From: Haloarcula salinisoli
Lineage (GTDB): Archaea > Halobacteriota > Halobacteria > Halobacteriales > Haloarculaceae
DNA: 64,000 nt
Reading direction: 5' to 3'
Assembly: GCF_019599405.1 (NCBI RefSeq)
Contig: NZ_RKLQ01000004.1
Span: 124,001 to 188,000 of the forward strand
The notes under the pieces are model-generated. The model saw nothing but the letters and a program-made list of their open reading frames with translations, did not search any database and was not told the DNA's origin. Positions 7,038 through 46,293 of this stretch are shown here, one piece after another. Every line of letters starts with the position of its first letter. Position 1 is the first letter of the stretch. The position numbers were made by a program, and so were the translations under genes.

Positions 7038-7346
7038 CCAATCCGACTTTCCGGCATTCGATGATTGAACCAGAAACTCCCTTTATTTTGAGTGAGTTGT
7101 TATACTTGTGAACCACGGCTCTCTCTATCAGGAGAGATTCACAGCCAATCGGGAGAGAGTAGTTCCATCCAGTTGCTCAAACATACGCACAAAGTGGACT
7201 ACGCATCTAAAAAATCAGATACAGTCGTCGAATTTAGCGGCCTTCACGAAATATATCGGTAACTGTCGGTTAGAAATAGTTCTTCCAAGAAAGAAGAAAA
7301 TGCCAAATTCACAGAACACAAATACAGCTGTAGTTTACACGGAACA
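7038..7346. other. Intergenic stretch, no gene supported
   Basis: 309 bases between the transporter and the Tat-exported peroxidase-like gene. An 80-codon open frame is present (7108-7350), but its translation (many Asn, Lys and Thr, few acids) is unlike real haloarchaeal proteins. The AT-rich run before 7347 probably holds the downstream promoter. Confidence 0.4.
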
Positions 7347-35571: not shown

Positions 35572-36896
35572 GTGGTTGATCCCGTTTTTGCGAGCCGTCT
35601 CCAGTTTCACTCACTACGATCGTCCATATCATCTTCCCGGTGATGAGTATGGGTCTCGCCCGGTTTCTCATCTATTTCACGTGGAAAGATATCCGCATCA
35701 AGAAGCCAGTCTACGAGCAACTCCGACGGTTCTGGACGCGCATCTTCGCAGTGAGTTTCGTCGTTGCACCGTAACGGGACTCGTCCTCGAGTTCGAATTC
35801 GGGACGAACTTTGCAGCGTTCTCGACAACAGCCGGAGAGCTGTTCGGTGGTCCACTCGCTCTCGAAGGGATGATGGCGTTCATGCTCAAAGCGACGTTCC
35901 TCGGGATCTTCATCTTCGGCCGCGAACGTGTTTCGGACCGTCTATACTTTCTGTCGAGTATTGCCGCCGGACTCGGAACCTGGCTCTCGGCCGTCTGGAT
36001 CCTCATCGCGAACTCGTGTATGCAGACGCCGCGTGGGTTCGAAATCGTCGTGGAGAACGGTCAGCGAATTGTGAAGCTTACCGACCCGCTCGCAGCCTAT
36101 CTCAATCCGCGGTTCCCCTATATGTTCATCCATATGCAGAACGCGGCCGTCGAATCGGTCGCGCTCTTCATGGCCGGCGTCGCCGCCTACTACGTGTTCC
36201 GGCACCACGTCTGGGGCTACCCAATTGAACACATCAATGTCTGGGAGAAGACGCTCAAAATCGCGCTCGTTGTTCTCCTCATCACGGCTCCACTACAGGT
36301 GATTCAGGGCGATGAGTATGCCCGCCACGTCTCTGAAACCCAACCCCAGAAATTCGCCGCGATGGAAGCCCTCTGGGAAACAGACTCCTACGTCCCCGAG
36401 TATATTGTCGCGTTCCCCACGGACGTCAACGACCTGCTGAACCACGGACGAAAGAGGTATTTGGCATCGGCATCCCGGGGGGAGCATCCTGGCTCGCGAG
36501 TGGCGGAAACCCACAGGCGACAATACGTGGCCTCGAATCCTTCTCGACGAAAGCCCCACCAGTGGCGATCGTCTTCTGGGCGTTCCGAATCATGGTTGCG
36601 CTCGGCTTCTGGTTCATCCTGTTGGCCGTCTGGGGTGCCTATCGATGGTGGCGTGGGGAACTCTTCGTGGGGAACTCTTCGAGGACGACCGATTACACAA
36701 GGCTTTGATGGCCTCATCTCTCTTAGGGTTCCTCGCCGTGGAAGTCGGCTGGATCGTCACCGGGTACGTCCTGTTGCTGGGCCTCTACAGATACGTTGTC
36801 GGTCGTATCATCCGAGCGGGGCCGCCATCAAAAGACGAACTCACGCAGAGTGATGCTGCCCACGTTCAAGAGTCAGAGGTGATGTCCAGTGACTAA
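35572..36896 (+). pseudogene. cydA: Cytochrome bd-type quinol oxidase subunit I, multiply frameshifted
   Basis: Reading from a GTG at 35572 with a Shine-Dalgarno-like AGGTGAG before it, the pieces join to a normal CydA: VDPVFASRLQF, then (after a 1-base loss near 35610) TIVHIIFPVMSMGLARF to SFVV. A second loss near 35766 shifts to TVTGLVLEFEFGTNFAAFS through QVIQGDEYARHVSETQPQKF. A third near 36442 shifts to EVFGIGIPGGASWLASGG. A 14-bp tandem duplication (36653-36680) then shifts to ELFEDDRLHKALMASS. Haem ligand regions are recognisable, but no intact product is possible. Loss of CydA should inactivate this bd oxidase. Confidence 0.88.
36653..36680 (+). repeat. 14-bp tandem duplication inside cydA
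   Basis: GTGGGGAACTCTTC occurs twice in direct succession (36653-36666 and 36667-36680). Removing one copy restores the frame from WRWWRGELF- into -EDDRLHKALMASS. Fourteen bases is not a multiple of three, so the duplication itself breaks the gene. Confidence 0.9.
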
Positions 36897-37554
36897 CGTC
36901 GGAACGCTGGCTACGAAGCCGCTATTCGGATTACCGCTCGCCGAGCTCTGGTTCGCGCTGCTGTTTTTCATCTTCGGGATGTTCCTCTTTCTCGACGGCT
37001 TCGATTTCGGCGTAGGCGTCCTGTTTGCGACCCGTACCGATGAGCACGAGAAAGAACGGCTGTTGGCGGCTGCCGGGCCGTTCTGGGACGGGAACGAGGT
37101 CTGGCTCGTCGTCTTTGGTGGAGCACTATTCGCGGCGTTTCCGTCCGTCTACGCGAATCTCTTCAGCCGATACTATCTGTTGATGTTCGCGATTCTCGCC
37201 GCACTCGGTCTCCGAGGGCTCGCCCCCGAGATGTACGAGGAGCGTGAAGACGACCGCTGGCGGACACTCTGGGGCTACTCGTTCGTCATCGGGAGTACCG
37301 TGACGCCGTTTCTGCTGGGGCTGTTCGTGATGAACTGGCTGGTCGGAGCGACTGGGCTCATCACCCCAGTAGGGGTCCTCGGTGGTGTCACAGTCCTTGT
37401 CCTCACGATCGTCGGCCTCATAGGTGGACTCCTTAGGACAGCAGTTGGTGGGCCGCTCAGTCTGATCGCCTACCTCGTCACGACGCTTGTCTCGGTCGGC
37501 GTTCTTTCTTATAACGTGAATGAACCAATTGATCGCCACGTTATTTACAACTGA
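36889..37554 (+). CDS. cydB: Cytochrome bd subunit II, shortened
   Basis: 221 residues from a GTG at 36889 that overlaps the end of cydA by 8 bases. The first half matches CydB well: LWFALLFFIFGMFLFLDGFD (conserved FDFG), AAAGPFWDGNEVWLVVFGGA and ALGLRGLAPEMYEE. CydB is normally about 320-380 residues with eight helices; here only about six helices are present and the tail (SYNVNEPIDRHVIYN) is not the usual ending. It is probably truncated or internally deleted, in keeping with the broken cydA. Treat it as likely non-functional. Confidence 0.75.
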   Translation: MTNVGTLATKPLFGLPLAELWFALLFFIFGMFLFLDGFDFGVGVLFATRTDEHEKERLLAAAGPFWDGNEVWLVVFGGALFAAFPSVYANLFSRYYLLMFAILAALGLRGLAPEMYEEREDDRWRTLWGYSFVIGSTVTPFLLGLFVMNWLVGATGLITPVGVLGGVTVLVLTIVGLIGGLLRTAVGGPLSLIAYLVTTLVSVGVLSYNVNEPIDRHVIYN

Positions 37555-37663: not shown

Positions 37664-39421
37664 ATGATATTACCACTGGTCCCACCGTTCGTGCCTGTCT
37701 TGCTCGTTGCGATTCTTTCGCCATTGTTCTCCCGCCGGATAAGTCATGCTCTCGGCCTGGTCGCGACTGCTGTCGTTGTACCGTACGTATGGCTCCTCCC
37801 AGAGGGTGCACTTATATCTGGAAGTTTATTCGGCTTTTCGACCATTTTCCTGTACGTAGACTCATTCACTCGATTGATGGGCGGTATCTTCGCATTCATT
37901 GGCTCAATCGGCATTATCTATTCATATGCGAGTGATGCCGATACCGTTCAGACAGCATTTGCCCTCAGTTACGTTGGAACTAGCATTGGGGCCGTGTTCG
38001 CAGGTGATTGGTTGACGCTTATTTTCTTTGTGGAGTTAATGTCGGTTGGAAGTACGCTACTTGTATGGCATTACGGCGGCCGGGCGGTTCGAGCGGGCTT
38101 CCGGTATGCACTCTGGCATGGAATCGGTGGGAGCCTGTTACTGGCAGCGATCGCTTGGCAATACGCAACTGTTAATTCGTTTTTGTTTACTGCGGCTGAT
38201 GGCATCGTCGGCACTGTCCCTCAAGTGCTGGCTGTCGTGGGTGTCGGTACTATGGTCGGATTCATTGGCCTCCACACGTGGCTCCCTGACACATATCCTA
38301 AGCCCCACATCGCTGCGAGCGTTTTTCTCTGTGTTTATACGACGAAAACGGGAGTCTATGTGATGTACCGAATTTTTCCGGACGGCCAGTTCGCAGTTGC
38401 CTATATGGGTGGCGGAATGGCCGTCTTCGGGGCTTTCATGGCTCTGATGCAGAGTGATATGCGACGGCTTCTCTCCTATCATATTCAATCACAGGTCGGG
38501 TATATGATAGCAGGGGTTGGAATTGGAACAACACTCGCCACCGCTGGTGCATTCGGTCACGTCTTCAATCACATCCTCTACAAGAGTCTCTTGTTTATGA
38601 CCGTCGGCGTCGTAATTTATCGAACTGGCGAAGAAAGTCTGAAACGCGTCGGCGGGCTCGCGAGAAAGTTACCAGTAACGACGGTAGCCTTTTCTATCGC
38701 GGCACTTTCAATCGCAGGATTCCCGGGCTTTAACGGGTTCGTCAGCAAAGGGATGGTTCTATCAGCCGCCGAGTACGAGGAGATGGAGACTCTCTGGTGG
38801 TTATTGATACTGGGCGGCGTAGGAACATTCCTATCGTTTATCAAACTGGGCTATTATGTGTTTTTCCACGGCGACTACGAAGGGGAGATCTACGACGCAA
38901 CCCGAGGACAGAAAGTTGCGATGGCGATAGTAGCAGGCCTGTGTGTGATCTTCGGAGTGTACCCCAGTGGATTGTTCAGTATCATCCCCTTTGGGTCAGA
39001 GATTCATTATGAAACATTCACCTTGGGTCATATCGGTGAGGGTCTTGAGCTTGCGATAGCAGGTATTCTTGGATTTGCTATCTTACGTCGGCCACTCAAG
39101 CGAATTGGCCGCATTCCAGATTTCGACGATATTTACAATCCCACCGTTTTCTTTGGGACCAAAGCAATAGTACATGGAGTCACCAACTCATTTGCTCGCA
39201 TCGATCAATTTGTGGTGCATCTCACCACAGGGACTCGCTGGCTCCTTAATAATCCCGAGTTAGGAGTCAGACGGTTCACAGCTATTGTGAAACAATCAAA
39301 AGTCGCTGAGCCTCAGGACAAAGATATAACACCAGGTACTTTTCGAGCAGGTATTGGCCAATCAATTGCCATTATTCTATTAGTCCTTGCAGTTATGTTG
39401 TTTGTATTGCTATTCAGTTAA
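37664..39421 (+). CDS. Mrp/complex-I-like proton antiporter subunit (MrpD/NuoL-N family)
   Basis: 585 residues, about fourteen helices. Family marks are WLTLIFFVELMSVGSTLLVW with the conserved membrane Glu (about 125), FIGLHTWLPDTYPKPH (conserved Lys/His loop), DMRRLLSYHIQSQVGYMIAG, HVFNHILYKSLLFMTVG with its essential Lys, and AGFPGFNGFVSKGM. Such proteins move H+ or Na+ in Mrp antiporters or respiratory complexes. No other Mrp subunits are next to it, so it may act alone, pair with a distant complex or be a stray copy. AT-rich third positions set it apart from the cyd genes. Confidence 0.85.
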   Translation: MILPLVPPFVPVLLVAILSPLFSRRISHALGLVATAVVVPYVWLLPEGALISGSLFGFSTIFLYVDSFTRLMGGIFAFIGSIGIIYSYASDADTVQTAFALSYVGTSIGAVFAGDWLTLIFFVELMSVGSTLLVWHYGGRAVRAGFRYALWHGIGGSLLLAAIAWQYATVNSFLFTAADGIVGTVPQVLAVVGVGTMVGFIGLHTWLPDTYPKPHIAASVFLCVYTTKTGVYVMYRIFPDGQFAVAYMGGGMAVFGAFMALMQSDMRRLLSYHIQSQVGYMIAGVGIGTTLATAGAFGHVFNHILYKSLLFMTVGVVIYRTGEESLKRVGGLARKLPVTTVAFSIAALSIAGFPGFNGFVSKGMVLSAAEYEEMETLWWLLILGGVGTFLSFIKLGYYVFFHGDYEGEIYDATRGQKVAMAIVAGLCVIFGVYPSGLFSIIPFGSEIHYETFTLGHIGEGLELAIAGILGFAILRRPLKRIGRIPDFDDIYNPTVFFGTKAIVHGVTNSFARIDQFVVHLTTGTRWLLNNPELGVRRFTAIVKQSKVAEPQDKDITPGTFRAGIGQSIAIILLVLAVMLFVLLFS

Positions 39422-40205: not shown

Positions 40206-41417
40206 ATGTCACCAGAAGAGCGGCAACCACGTGGGGACCCCTCCCGTGGACAGACCTCTCGAATCGGGTCTGTTCGGCCACTCTCTATACTTCTCGCCGC
40301 GATTGGTACGCTCACTCAGGTTCCCGTCGCATCTGCCCACGGTACAACCGGAAGCGGTGGACTCTCGCAAGGACACGGTGTAATTATTGCTTTCGTTGGT
40401 GCCGTTATTCTCGGTGGATTCATCCTTCTCAAACGAACAGATCGTATCACGGCGACAACCGCTCTGTACGGCGTGTTCGCCGGTATCGCTATCACTGCGC
40501 TTGGAGCCGTGCTCTTCGAAGGGCTCTCTCCGGATCCGACGTATACCGCGAGCTCGATGCCGTTCCCCCGAACGTGGTATCAGCCACTGGCCCTGCTGAG
40601 TGGCTTGGGAATCATGGTCGCGAGCTTCGTCGTTGGGTGGCTCCGCTGGCCATCCCGGCCACGGTACACGTTCCTCGGCATCCTCATGGGATTGTGGATC
40701 TCGTACCCCTACCTCCTTCCAGGACTGGCAAGCGATACGCATCCACTTGGGTACGCCATCGTCCTCGGCACGCCAATCCTGGTCGGTTATGTCGTCTGGA
40801 AGGACGCAGGGAGTGTCATTCGCGCAGTCATGCGTGATCCGGTTGCGCGTCGCTTCGGCATCGGTGTTGGTGTCGTGTTAGCGCTCTTTTTCGTCTCGAT
40901 AACGGGGTACCTCTCGTTTTTCCCCGAAGAAGGCTTCCCCGAGGAAGTGACGGTCGTCGTTCTGCCCGCAATCTATCAGTTGGTGTCGTGGCCGACACTC
41001 GAAATCGCGATCCCCCATCTTCCGTTCATACATATCCCGTTCTTCCTGGCCGTGTCACCTGGCCAGGTCATCGTCGTCGGGATGCTGAGCGCTCTCATCG
41101 GGTTGAACGCTGCCCTCATCGCCCGTCACTGGCGCGTCGAAGAACGAGCTGGTATGACCGAAGGAACCGCCGGGAGTGCTGCAATCGTCGGGACGTGTAC
41201 TTGTGGCTGCTGTGGACCACTCGTCGCAAAGATCGCGGTGCTTGCTGCCGGGCCATCGATTGCCGCCCCCCTCTACTGGGTATTCGTCGATTCGGCCTCG
41301 CCGCTCAGTGCAGTATTCATCGTTGGGAGCTTCGTCCTCTTCACTGGGAGTCTGATCTACTCGGTTCAAACAGCCCGACAACCCGATCAATCGGCCGCCA
41401 TCATCCCCGCCGACTGA
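40206..41417 (+). CDS. Polytopic membrane protein with CTCGCCGP motif
   Basis: 403 residues with a signal-like first helix (ending PVASAHGTTGSGG, so a new N-terminal His if cleaved) and about ten further helices. Near the C terminus (about 330) the sequence GTCTCGCCGPLVAKIAVLA puts four Cys in six residues at the edge of a helix, a good soft-metal or redox site. The Gly/His stretch after the leader (HGTTGSGGLSQGHG) adds possible ligands. I do not recognise the family. Its place just before the copper-type ATPase (convergent) and near redox genes suggests copper handling, but this is an inference. Confidence 0.7.
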   Translation: MSPEERQPRGDPSRGQTSRIGSVRPLSILLAAIGTLTQVPVASAHGTTGSGGLSQGHGVIIAFVGAVILGGFILLKRTDRITATTALYGVFAGIAITALGAVLFEGLSPDPTYTASSMPFPRTWYQPLALLSGLGIMVASFVVGWLRWPSRPRYTFLGILMGLWISYPYLLPGLASDTHPLGYAIVLGTPILVGYVVWKDAGSVIRAVMRDPVARRFGIGVGVVLALFFVSITGYLSFFPEEGFPEEVTVVVLPAIYQLVSWPTLEIAIPHLPFIHIPFFLAVSPGQVIVVGMLSALIGLNAALIARHWRVEERAGMTEGTAGSAAIVGTCTCGCCGPLVAKIAVLAAGPSIAAPLYWVFVDSASPLSAVFIVGSFVLFTGSLIYSVQTARQPDQSAAIIPAD

Positions 41418-41714: not shown

Positions 41715-44243
41715 CTACTCGTGAAGCAGGTCTCGAAACGAATTCGCCGCCAGGAGACCGCCGGTCGCCACGACCGCACCCATCGCGAACACCGGATTCA
41801 GCAACCCCGTCGCTGCGAGGGACATCGTAACTCCATTGTAGAGCAGCGCTAGCCCATTATTCTGTTTGACACGCCGACGAGCTGCAGCTGCGAGGTGGAA
41901 CGTCGTCTCCACCGCCGCGAGGTCGTCACCGACGATAGAAATATCCGCGGCATCGGACGCGAGTGCCGTTCCACCACCGAGCGAGATCCCCAAATCTGCG
42001 GTCGCAAGGGCCGGAGCATCGTTCGTCCCATCACCGACCATTGTAACCTGTCCCCGGGACTGTAACCGCCGGATCGTCGCGGTCTTGCCTGCGGGTGGGA
42101 CCCCCGCGAACACGTGATCGACGGCAGGATGGCTGTCGAGAAAATCAGTGGCAGCCTCATCATCACCGGTCAGAACGACGATCTCGATAGCACGGTCACT
42201 CAGTTGCGTGAGTGTCTCATCCCAGCTTGGGCGTGGTTCATCGCCCACGACGATGACACCCTCTGCATGACCGTCCCGACCGACGACGACCGGAAGGTGA
42301 CCGGCCGTTCGTGCCTCTGCGGCACGCGTCTCGATCTGCTCGCTAACCGACCACCCCAGTTCCGCGAAGAGATGGAGATTCCCGACGAGAACGTGTGTAT
42401 CCGCGACGACGCCTTCGACGCCGGTCGCGTGGCTCGTGAATTCAGTGATGTCCTCTGCGTGCTCGTGATCACTTCCATCGGCAACACCACCATCGGCTCT
42501 CGACCGGTCGCCGTCCTGATTCCCTTGTGCGAACGCATTCACGATCGCGTCGGCCGCCGGGTGGGATGCTCGCTGTTCGAGGGCCGCGACGATTTCAAGG
42601 AGATCCGACGGTGCATCCACCTCGAGGACATCCATCTGGCCGGTCGTGAGAGTCCCCGTTTTGTCGAAGACGACGACGTCGACGTTCCGAAGGCGCTCGA
42701 AGACGGTCTCGTCGAAGATGACGATGCCGCGCTCTACCGCTTGTTCGATACTGGTTGCCACCGAGAGCGGGGTTGCCAGGCCAAGTGCCCACGGACATCC
42801 AACCAAGAGAACCACCAGCGCGGTCAGGACGGCGACGGGGATGCCAGTCCCCACCAGAAGCGACCCCAATCCAGCGAGTACCGCCCCACCGACGACGACC
42901 GGGATAATGACTGACGCGAGCCGATCTGCCTGCCGCTGGACGCCGTGATCCCCGCTCTGAAGATCCCAAACCGAAGTGATGAGGCGATCGATACTACTGG
43001 TTGTCTCATCGCTCACTGTGAGGACGGCAGCACCATTTGTGACGACCGCCCCGCCGACGACCTCGTCTCCCGCTTGCTTCGATACCGGAAGCGACTCGCC
43101 CGTCACGATCGCTTCATCGACCGTACACTCACCCTCAGCGAGAACTCCATCGACCGGGATTCGTTCACCCTCGCGGACGAGGACACGCTCCCCGGGTACC
43201 AGATCGTGTACGTCGACCGTCGTCGTCCCATCGGCGCCATACCGCCTGGCCTCGGTGACGTGAGAGATAGTGAGATTCGTCAGGCGATCCATCGCCCGCT
43301 GCTTGCTCAGTGATTCGTAGAAGATAGCGGCCACCACACTCGCGGCAACCACAATCGTGAGGTCGTAGAACACATCGAGCCGCCCGAGGAGGAAGGCAAT
43401 CGTGCTATACACGTAGGCACCCACGATGGTTAGTGCGACGAGCAGGTCGGTGTTCGGCTGTCGCATCTTCAGACTGACATACGCACCCTGTAACAACGGC
43501 AGGCCGGTGAAAAACAGAACTACCCCTGTCAAAACGAGAAAGAGCGGCAGGATCAACAGGCTATCTCCACCACCGAGTCCGGACGCACTCGCGTACATAT
43601 CGAGCGTCCCGTCACCAAAGAACGACGAGAGCTGCGCCGGATAGAGGAGGACCGCATATGGGAGGAGCATGAACGTCCCGAAAATGACGCCAGCAGCGTA
43701 ACGGAACCCTAGCACCTCATCAATGCCTCGTTCAGTAGGTTCGTCAGATCGCCGTGACTGTCCGATTACAGTCGGTGCGTCATCATTCCCTCCAGCACGA
43801 AGGGTTGCCGAATAGCCGAGCGTACTCAGAGCATCACAGAGAGTCTCCTTCGAGACGCGATCAGGGTCGTATGTGATACGGATCGTCTCGGTAACGTAAC
43901 TCGCCGCGGCGTCAGTGACACCCTCACAGCTCTTGGCGACTGATTCGAGAAATGCTTCACACGTCGCACAGTGCATCCCATCGACTTGGAAGAAAACACG
44001 TGACTCGGTCGTCGATTCAGTGGAGCCTCCAGCGCGCTGAATTTTTTCAACGCTGGGAGTGTGCCTAACTCCGGGTGTTGTGTCCATCCGTCGAGATTCC
44101 GGTTCCTCATTACAAAGGACACGATAGACGCTCTGACACCCTGTACAACAAAAGAGAAGATCGTCAGCACCGACGACTCGGTGGTCGGGTACGGTTCCAT
44201 CACAGAGCGCGCACGTGGGAGGTGATAAATGAGATGGAGACAT
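41715..44243 (-). CDS. Copper-type P1B ATPase (FixI/CcoI-like N terminus) with CPW instead of CPC
   Basis: 842 residues. The N terminus holds a Cys cluster (CALCDGT ... LLFCCTGCQSVYRVL, about 11-45) like that of FixI/CopA2-type pumps, then an HMA domain (GMHCATC, about 90). The catalytic parts are complete: TGESLPVSK, DKTGTLTTG, ASHPAADAI and GDGTNDAPAL. The TM6 motif reads GCPWALGLATP, with Trp in place of the second ligand Cys. The last helices have YNGVTMS and NPVFAMGAVVATGG and lack the usual MxxSS of Cu+ pumps. Transport of copper is thus uncertain. It is flanked by metal genes and reads away from nikR. Confidence 0.88.
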   Translation of the reverse strand: MSPSHLSPPTCALCDGTVPDHRVVGADDLLFCCTGCQSVYRVLCNEEPESRRMDTTPGVRHTPSVEKIQRAGGSTESTTESRVFFQVDGMHCATCEAFLESVAKSCEGVTDAAASYVTETIRITYDPDRVSKETLCDALSTLGYSATLRAGGNDDAPTVIGQSRRSDEPTERGIDEVLGFRYAAGVIFGTFMLLPYAVLLYPAQLSSFFGDGTLDMYASASGLGGGDSLLILPLFLVLTGVVLFFTGLPLLQGAYVSLKMRQPNTDLLVALTIVGAYVYSTIAFLLGRLDVFYDLTIVVAASVVAAIFYESLSKQRAMDRLTNLTISHVTEARRYGADGTTTVDVHDLVPGERVLVREGERIPVDGVLAEGECTVDEAIVTGESLPVSKQAGDEVVGGAVVTNGAAVLTVSDETTSSIDRLITSVWDLQSGDHGVQRQADRLASVIIPVVVGGAVLAGLGSLLVGTGIPVAVLTALVVLLVGCPWALGLATPLSVATSIEQAVERGIVIFDETVFERLRNVDVVVFDKTGTLTTGQMDVLEVDAPSDLLEIVAALEQRASHPAADAIVNAFAQGNQDGDRSRADGGVADGSDHEHAEDITEFTSHATGVEGVVADTHVLVGNLHLFAELGWSVSEQIETRAAEARTAGHLPVVVGRDGHAEGVIVVGDEPRPSWDETLTQLSDRAIEIVVLTGDDEAATDFLDSHPAVDHVFAGVPPAGKTATIRRLQSRGQVTMVGDGTNDAPALATADLGISLGGGTALASDAADISIVGDDLAAVETTFHLAAAARRRVKQNNGLALLYNGVTMSLAATGLLNPVFAMGAVVATGGLLAANSFRDLLHE

Positions 44244-44367: not shown

Positions 44368-44778
44368 TTAGTCCTTTGACATCGCGGAGAGCTCCGGTTG
44401 GAGGAACATGACATTCACGCGTCCGACGGCATCGAAATCTCGGAGTCGGTACACCAACTCCCGGATTCGTGCTGCAGAGCCCTGACAGAAGAGCGTCTCA
44501 AGACACCACTCCCCGTGGTGCATATGTTGTGTGGTACTGATAACCTCCTCAAACTCGTGCTGAACCGTATGGAGTTCACCGATGACGAGTGTGTGCTCGT
44601 AATCGAACGCCAGCGCTGCGACGACAGGGCCGTCCAACTCTTCCAGTTCCGTGTGACGCTCGATGTATTCCTGAATCGCCTCACGGACGGCACGGGAGCG
44701 TGATTCCAATCCTTCGTCTTGCCACGTCGTATCGAACGACTCGAGAACCTCTTGGGGAATGTTCAAACTCGTTCTCAT
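44368..44778 (-). CDS. nikR: NikR-type nickel-responsive regulator
   Basis: 136 residues. It has an N-terminal ribbon-helix-helix (MRTSLNIPQEVLESFD, then SRSRAVREAIQEYIERH) and a C-terminal ACT-like metal domain with the NikR ligand set: His in ELHTVQHEFE, His-x-His in QHMHHGEWCLE and the Cys of the same block. With Ni2+ it binds a palindrome and represses transport genes. It is divergent from a NicO/RcnA-type nickel/cobalt transporter, whose promoter region holds two palindromes. Confidence 0.92.
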   Translation of the reverse strand: MRTSLNIPQEVLESFDTTWQDEGLESRSRAVREAIQEYIERHTELEELDGPVVAALAFDYEHTLVIGELHTVQHEFEEVISTTQHMHHGEWCLETLFCQGSAARIRELVYRLRDFDAVGRVNVMFLQPELSAMSKD

Positions 44779-45729: not shown

Positions 45730-46293
45730 TCAGTCGGCAGGTTGAGCGTCAGTAGGCGGAGTCGCACTTGGGAGCTCGGGGATGGAAAAGTCGATGCGCC
45801 GAAGCAGCTGTGCGTTGATTGCGACGATCACCGTACTCAGCGACATCAGGAGCGCTCCCACGGCGGGAGACAGCAGAATCCCGATTGGTGCCAACACGCC
45901 TGCTGCAAGCGGAATCGCGAAGACGTTGTAGCCGGCCGCCCAGACGATGTTCTCCTGCATCTTCCGGTAGCTCGCCTTGCTGAGTTTCACGAGCCGAACG
46001 ACATCCATGGGGTTGTTCTGGACGAGGATGACGTCCGTCCCGTCTTCGAGGTCAGCGTCCATCTTCTGATAGCGGTTCGCCCAGAGCATACAGGGAAGCT
46101 CGGCGTCGCCGTCGGTCAGGGTGAAATAGAGGGCGGTACTGTTCTGATGGAGATCCGTGACCTCGCCGATACACCGGACGCCGTTGAGGGCAGGCGTGTC
46201 CTGGACGACCGATGCAATTCGGTCGTTCAGCTCTTGGACTGAAAGAACATTCCCGGACAGGACATCATCTACCTCCCGTTCGGCATCAGCCAT
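45730..46293 (-). CDS. In-frame chimera: XseA-type OB domain fused to the C terminus of a P1B ATPase
   Basis: 187 residues. Residues 1-90 look like the N-terminal OB domain of exonuclease VII large subunit ([58 protein letters not shown]). From about residue 92 the sequence changes to the end of a copper-type P1B ATPase: [20 protein letters not shown], then [20 protein letters not shown], then [18 protein letters not shown]. The two meet at [12 protein letters not shown] with the frame intact. Neither parent function can survive: the nuclease domain and the ATPase core are both absent. It looks like a product of a deletion or recombination. Confidence 0.82.

Follow-up and report, generated by a model that had tools for sequence, protein, structure and literature searches.

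Known P1B ATPases and the ATPase of the window

P1B ATPases are defined by their membrane metal ligands, and the proteins described here have kept the ATPase engine while shedding those ligands. The closest described systems are the CcoI/FixI enzymes (CopA2-type P1B-1), of which CcoI serves for copper supply to cytochrome oxidases (PMC8475189), and CopA (A. fulgidus, 3j09/7r0g; L. pneumophila, 3rfu/4bbj). In AfCopA, mutating C380, C382, the YN pair or MxxSS impairs copper binding (PMC9433437, from which the AfCopA residue numbering, M158 etc., is taken). Reviews already list P1B-7, with its substrate given as unknown, and Rcc01042 of R. capsulatus, reported to be without typical transmembrane metal-binding motifs (PMC7558416), so P1B proteins lacking clear motifs are not new to the literature, but no mention of the clade discussed below was found. 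These bacterial proteins, compared with ours by description only, are earlier examples of P1B ATPases whose substrate is unknown. The open-access literature yielded no paper on P1B ATPases with a CPW or, more generally, x-Pro-Trp (xPW) motif, nor on haloarchaea with the CPC motif; the xPW proteins apparently form an undescribed P1B subfamily.

The window, i.e. the whole stretch of 64,000 nucleotides analysed (Haloarcula salinisoli, contig NZ_RKLQ01000004.1, positions 124,001 to 188,000), contains one such gene with the following features:

41715..44243, minus strand: xPW-type P1B-like ATPase, 842 aa, ATG start (ORF, Pfam, NCBIfam, AF2); domain order N-terminal Cys cluster, HMA, MA/MB plus six TM helices, A, P and N domains
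44136..44150, minus strand: N-terminal CCTGC, residues 32-36
43959..43979, minus strand: GMHCATC of the HMA domain, residues 89-95
43449..43451, minus strand: Thr265, aligned with M158 of AfCopA, the methionine at which Cu(I) enters
43095..43103, minus strand: TGE dephosphorylation motif, residues 381-383 (TGES 381-384), invariant
42789..42797, minus strand: CPW, residues 483-485, replacing CPC in M4 (TM6 of 8)
42651..42665, minus strand: DKTGT phosphorylation motif, residues 527-531, invariant
42018..42035, minus strand: GDGTND hinge motif, residues 737-742, invariant
41850..41852, minus strand: Leu798 in M5, just before YN
41760..41774, minus strand: VVATG, residues 824-828, replacing the MxxSS ligands of M6

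Pfam recognises HMA, E1-E2 ATPase and hydrolase domains, and the N-terminus carries a CxxC...FCCTGC cluster followed by the HMA with GMHCATC. An earlier note on this DNA had described a P1B ATPase with intact catalytic motifs, CPW for CPC in TM6 and a final helix without MxxSS, and all three observations were confirmed: TGES, DKTGT, GDGTND and the HP motif of the N domain (residues 561-562) are present, the motif at residues 483-485 is encoded by tgt ccg tgg, and the helix reads V824-V-A-T827-G828. The change of the entry methionine to Thr265 was absent from that note and was found by alignment. The marks of P-type ATPases (DKTGT, TGE(S), GDGxND) are invariant in the aligned xPW sequences, and the HP motif, MA/MB with six TM helices, the HMA and a TIGR01525 (heavy-metal) score of 409.5 bits (cut-off 346) place the window ATPase among the heavy-metal P1B enzymes. 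The top Foldseek PDB match of its AF2 model (mean pLDDT 75.9, pTM 0.68) is LpCopA 4bbj (TMt 0.81), so the P1B fold is kept.

Of the residues marking P1B-1 (CopA2), YN in M5 is present, but CPC in M4 is replaced by CPW here and by xPW in all members, and MxxSS in M6 and the entry methionine are missing. None of the P1B-2 (Zn/Cd) residues (CPC, Lys in M5, Asp-Gly in M6) was found, CPW stands where P1B-3 (CopB) has CPH, and instead of the SPC and M6 HEGxT of P1B-4 (Co/Zn/Fe) there are xPW and no HEGxT. The P1B core is shared with P1B-2 (ZntA), P1B-3 and P1B-4, but their second-site signatures are missing, and to our knowledge Pro-Trp occurs at M4 in none of these three classes. CcoI/FixI is resembled in domain order, N-terminal Cys cluster, a single HMA with CxxC, P1B topology and ancestry through the haloarchaeal sisters that retain CPC (44-51% identity to xPW). 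The xPW proteins differ in that CPC, the entry Met, the M5 Trp and the Met of MxxSS are all replaced, they are usually unlinked to oxidase genes, and they lie under the NCBIfam copper cut-off (TIGR01511, 397): the window ATPase scores 361.3 bits and all five xPW tested fail (326-361, the four others 326-337), whereas three CPC sisters pass with 419-440 bits. With CopA they share the fold, the catalytic motifs, YN and the acidic entry residues, but equivalents of M158, C382 and M711 are absent and that of C380 is lost in most of the clade. Annotations of haloarchaeal 'heavy metal' or 'copper' ATPases should be checked at M4 before being read as copper pumps.

An Arg-rich linker (residues ~150-170; 43734-43796, minus strand) between the HMA and the first membrane helix is xPW-specific, being missing from the CPC sisters, and is a low-confidence region of the AF2 model.

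Relatives, phylogeny and distribution

The best 80 homologues (unfiltered, from one-genome-per-species data) were all haloarchaeal, and every readable motif among them was CPC or xPW. Enlarged with loci from whole genomes, the xPW set comprised 96 distinct sequences: 67 SPW, 19 CPW, 5 TPW, 3 APW, 1 GPW and 1 NPW. Pro-Trp is thus invariant, preceded by S, C, T, A, G or N. In a tree rooted on other P1B paralogues from the same genome, xPW formed a single clade (SH-aLRT 100) nested in the CPC group, whose members are copper ATPases of haloarchaea that resemble FixI/CcoI and are linked to genes for cytochrome oxidase. When nine trait columns were removed, xPW was one side of one branch, again with SH-aLRT 100 in a quick search with no bootstrap; this tree requires one change to Trp, and independent origins are unneeded. 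The 'uncharacterised class' offered by the earlier note therefore corresponds to one well-supported clade with many members. Serine codons at position 483 belong to both families (AGY and TCN) and Trp is uniformly TGG, which fits repeated loss of Cys after fixation of Trp.

Halobacteria and other genomes of the same phylum were scanned with an exact-spacing pattern (PW, 41 residues, DKTGT), reversed patterns serving as controls. Matches were found in 135 of 391 Halobacteria genomes, representing 36 of 86 genera, with 0 control matches; the 312 genomes sampled from the rest of the phylum gave none. Chance matches were discounted, as the reversed patterns matched nowhere in Halobacteria and once in the phylum at large. 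A Trp found only here would have pointed to a single substitution or a sequence error, and this explanation is rejected because 135/391 genomes share the spacing, the reversed controls in Halobacteria were blank and all copies encode the Trp by TGG.

One family (f3), which a comparison with named loci marks as probably Natrialbaceae, has xPW in ~89 of 101 genomes, as counted from the table, often on a very large contig. The xPW protein does not replace its CPC sisters, since both occur in the window's own genome (L001/L002), in Halopiger goleimassiliensis (L068 with L056 and L094), in Saliphagus (L026 and L034 with L063) and in Haloarcula amylovorans (L024 with L046). A copy with ~89% identity is present in Haloarcula marismortui, so that xPW function is experimentally testable. 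The copy of Halonotius terrestris (L035:6001-8498) is interrupted, its open frame covering just 470 aa from position 7088.

Residues lost and retained

Residues were compared in an alignment of 94 xPW and 38 CPC sequences. Conservation at positions 33, 483 and 485 within the sets is partly by construction, because sequences entered the CPC set if they had both CPC and CCxGC, and the xPW set if they had Trp; positions 92, 265, 798 and 824-828 played no part in this choice. Position 265 is Met in 38/38 CPC sequences and Thr in 0.86 of xPW, where no Met was seen, and position 798 is Trp in 38/38 CPC sequences vs Leu in 0.86 of xPW, never Trp. Position 824 is Met (1.00) in CPC and Val or Ala in xPW, and the Ser-Ser of positions 827-828 is mixed in xPW. 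Of the CPC cysteines, position 485 is Trp and position 483 is Ser (0.71) in xPW. The cytosolic sites follow: Cys33 of CCxGC and Cys92 of the HMA, both 1.00 in CPC, are Ser (0.82) and Ser/Ala (0.79), respectively. The retention of the cytosolic metal-binding parts, claimed by the earlier note, hence holds for this protein's subclade and a few others, not across the clade.

Retained in xPW are Cys11, 14, 32 and 36, likely a structural Zn site, together with Cys95 (96%), the acidic entry residues E310 and D440 (AfCopA E205, D336) and YN of M5 (Y802 in 95%, N803 in 98% of the clade, both in the window ATPase). The window ATPase also retains CCxGC, GMHCxxC and Cys483. New near-invariant residues specific to xPW include Y182, F188, F191, P195, C373 and A406, and across the xPW alignment no new fixed ionisable residue was found at the M4-M6 site.

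On the tree, positions 265, 485, 798 and 824 changed once each, on the xPW stem, whereas Cys483 changed 8 times, Cys33 6 and Cys92 5; D527, E383, H561 and D738 did not change. The order of ligand loss can therefore be read: four positions changed on the stem, and three Cys sites followed piecemeal. Pairwise NG86 dN/dS is ~0.12-0.37 for xPW pairs, similar to 0.17-0.30 for CPC pairs, and such values, well below 1, with the conserved catalytic motifs indicate that the catalytic machinery is under purifying selection.

Gene neighbourhoods

CPC sisters adjoin genes for COX1, COX2, halocyanin and a DsbD_2-family protein, consistent with a CcoI-like role in copper supply, whereas most xPW genes do not; the DsbD_2-family neighbour was found in 14 of 26 CPC loci and 1 of 51 xPW loci. 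The early-branching xPW gene L144 still adjoins COX1, which fits the proposed origin from a FixI/CcoI-like ATPase. No shared partner gene was found for the chromosomal xPW genes, whose neighbours, presumably sulfatase-like, MATE, ThiC-like and others, differ from locus to locus, and the neighbourhood was set aside as a guide to cargo. Plasmid xPW genes, including that of the window, lie near genes for CopB (CPH), P1B-2, CDF, multicopper oxidase or NikR/NicO. Two neighbours of the window gene are of interest:

40206..41417, plus strand: 403-aa membrane protein with C-terminal CTCGCCGPL, beside the xPW gene
44368-44778, minus strand: NikR-like regulator in the same direction as the CPW gene and 124 bp upstream of it; NicO lies further upstream

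The 403-aa protein has no real match in Pfam; 16 loci, spread over different subclades, have it next to an xPW gene, it occurs in none of the CPC loci (second clustering), and its position suggests that it may be linked to xPW. The NikR/NicO order recurs in L025, and other genes occupy this place in the closest relatives (L021-L024, L092).

In three loci, the xPW gene lies directly downstream of a P1B-2-like CPC ATPase gene on the same strand (L150:2411-7032, L151:5060-10174, L165:4991-10075), with gaps ranging from a 4-base overlap to ~90 bases.

Possible function of the xPW ATPases

That all catalytic motifs were kept while every membrane Cu(I) ligand but YN was lost argues for an ATP-driven cycle which is maintained by selection but does not serve Cu(I) transport of the canonical kind. 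Judged from sequence, the xPW clade is most probably not a group of canonical Cu(I) pumps (probability about 0.85), and the same appears likely, with somewhat less assurance, for the present CPW member. We propose that xPW is a haloarchaea-specific P1B subfamily with a single origin, from a Cu(I) ATPase of the FixI/CcoI (CopA2) type. The membrane Cu(I) path was dismantled on the stem, by replacement of the entry Met by Thr, of the second CPC Cys by Trp and of the M5 Trp before YN by Leu, and by loss of the M6 MxxSS Met; separate lineages later lost the first Cys of CPC, the Cys of the HMA and one Cys of CCxGC. The ATP-driven E1/E2 cycle is presumably kept and might be retasked for another, non-thiophilic cargo, passing a neutral aromatic pocket formed by [S/T/C]-P-W, YN and [V/A]xx[T/S/G][G/A]. 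What the xPW pumps move or regulate is probably not copper; that they drive a different cargo, the reading favoured here, has an even chance, and it is a tentative suggestion that they represent a new P-type pump class, in which the Trp-containing neutral pocket replaced the ion site on the stem and a non-metal substrate (small organic, lipid-like or proton) is moved. Against such retasking, neither the M4-M6 residues nor the chromosomal neighbourhoods provide a cargo candidate, YN and the acidic E310 and D440 are retained, with CCxGC, GMHCxxC and Cys483 in this member, and the location of plasmid xPW genes, this one included, among metal genes would fit a metal role.

It is also conceivable, though rather doubtful, that xPW cycles with ATP and transports nothing, serving another pump or the assembly of oxidase as a sensor, partner or assembly factor. 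The disappearance of almost all ligands from a protein that keeps its catalytic motifs, the retained HMA fold and Zn-finger-like Cys11/14/32/36, and the co-directional, near-overlapping arrangement with a P1B-2-like CPC ATPase would agree with this, but that tandem is seen in three loci only, most members stand alone on the chromosome, and a cargo-free cycle is unusual for P-type ATPases, in which phosphorylation usually needs bound ligand. Copper might instead be moved without the usual site, as the earlier note had considered: in CPW members, Cys483 and Trp485 (by a cation-pi contact, as between Cu(I) and tryptophan in the chaperone CusF) could hold Cu(I) or Ag(I) together with Tyr802/Asn803. 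The window ATPase's subclade, which keeps CCxGC, GMHCATC, Cys483 and YN and sits amid copper genes on plasmids, is where this might apply. For the clade it is disfavoured, since the remaining soft Cu(I) ligands of CopA have also gone: most members are without Cys483, Cys92 and Cys33, the entry Met and M6 Met are gone in all xPW, and the Met and His ligands that CusF also uses have no conserved equivalent. Overall, such an altered site is unlikely.

A pump for another metal, e.g. Ni(II) or Co(II), is considerably less probable. It could be suggested by NikR and NicO directly upstream of the window copy, their same order in L025 and a gene near L144 which we take to be NikR-like, but the closest relatives carry other genes at that position, and the site has no SPC/TPC, HEGxT, His or acidic ligands. 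The 'different metal' of the earlier note found no support, no new Asp, Glu, His, Cys or Lys being conserved in M4-M6. Finally, repeated loss of ligand Cys and the interrupted Halonotius copy could be taken for decay of functionless copies; this is hardly credible given catalytic motifs invariant over 94 diverged sequences, the low dN/dS, the invariant Pro-Trp and the near-universal presence of the gene in one family. With its ATPase engine kept and its membrane ligands lost in a readable order, this widespread clade is a natural experiment on the trigger of the P-type cycle and on change of substrate specificity.

Other genes of the window

In a 187-aa ORF (45730-46293, minus strand), an N-terminus with an XseA-like OB fold is followed by the two final membrane helices of a CPH-type (CopB) ATPase. 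The latter part matches the C-terminus of the intact CopB in the same genome (L007) and in relatives (L022, L025), and the ORF looks like what is left of a copB once present here and since deleted. A CydB-like protein (36889-37554, plus strand), followed by a Mrp antiporter subunit D-like gene (37664-39421), has 221 aa vs 333-334 aa in related plasmids (L021, L092) and is probably truncated.
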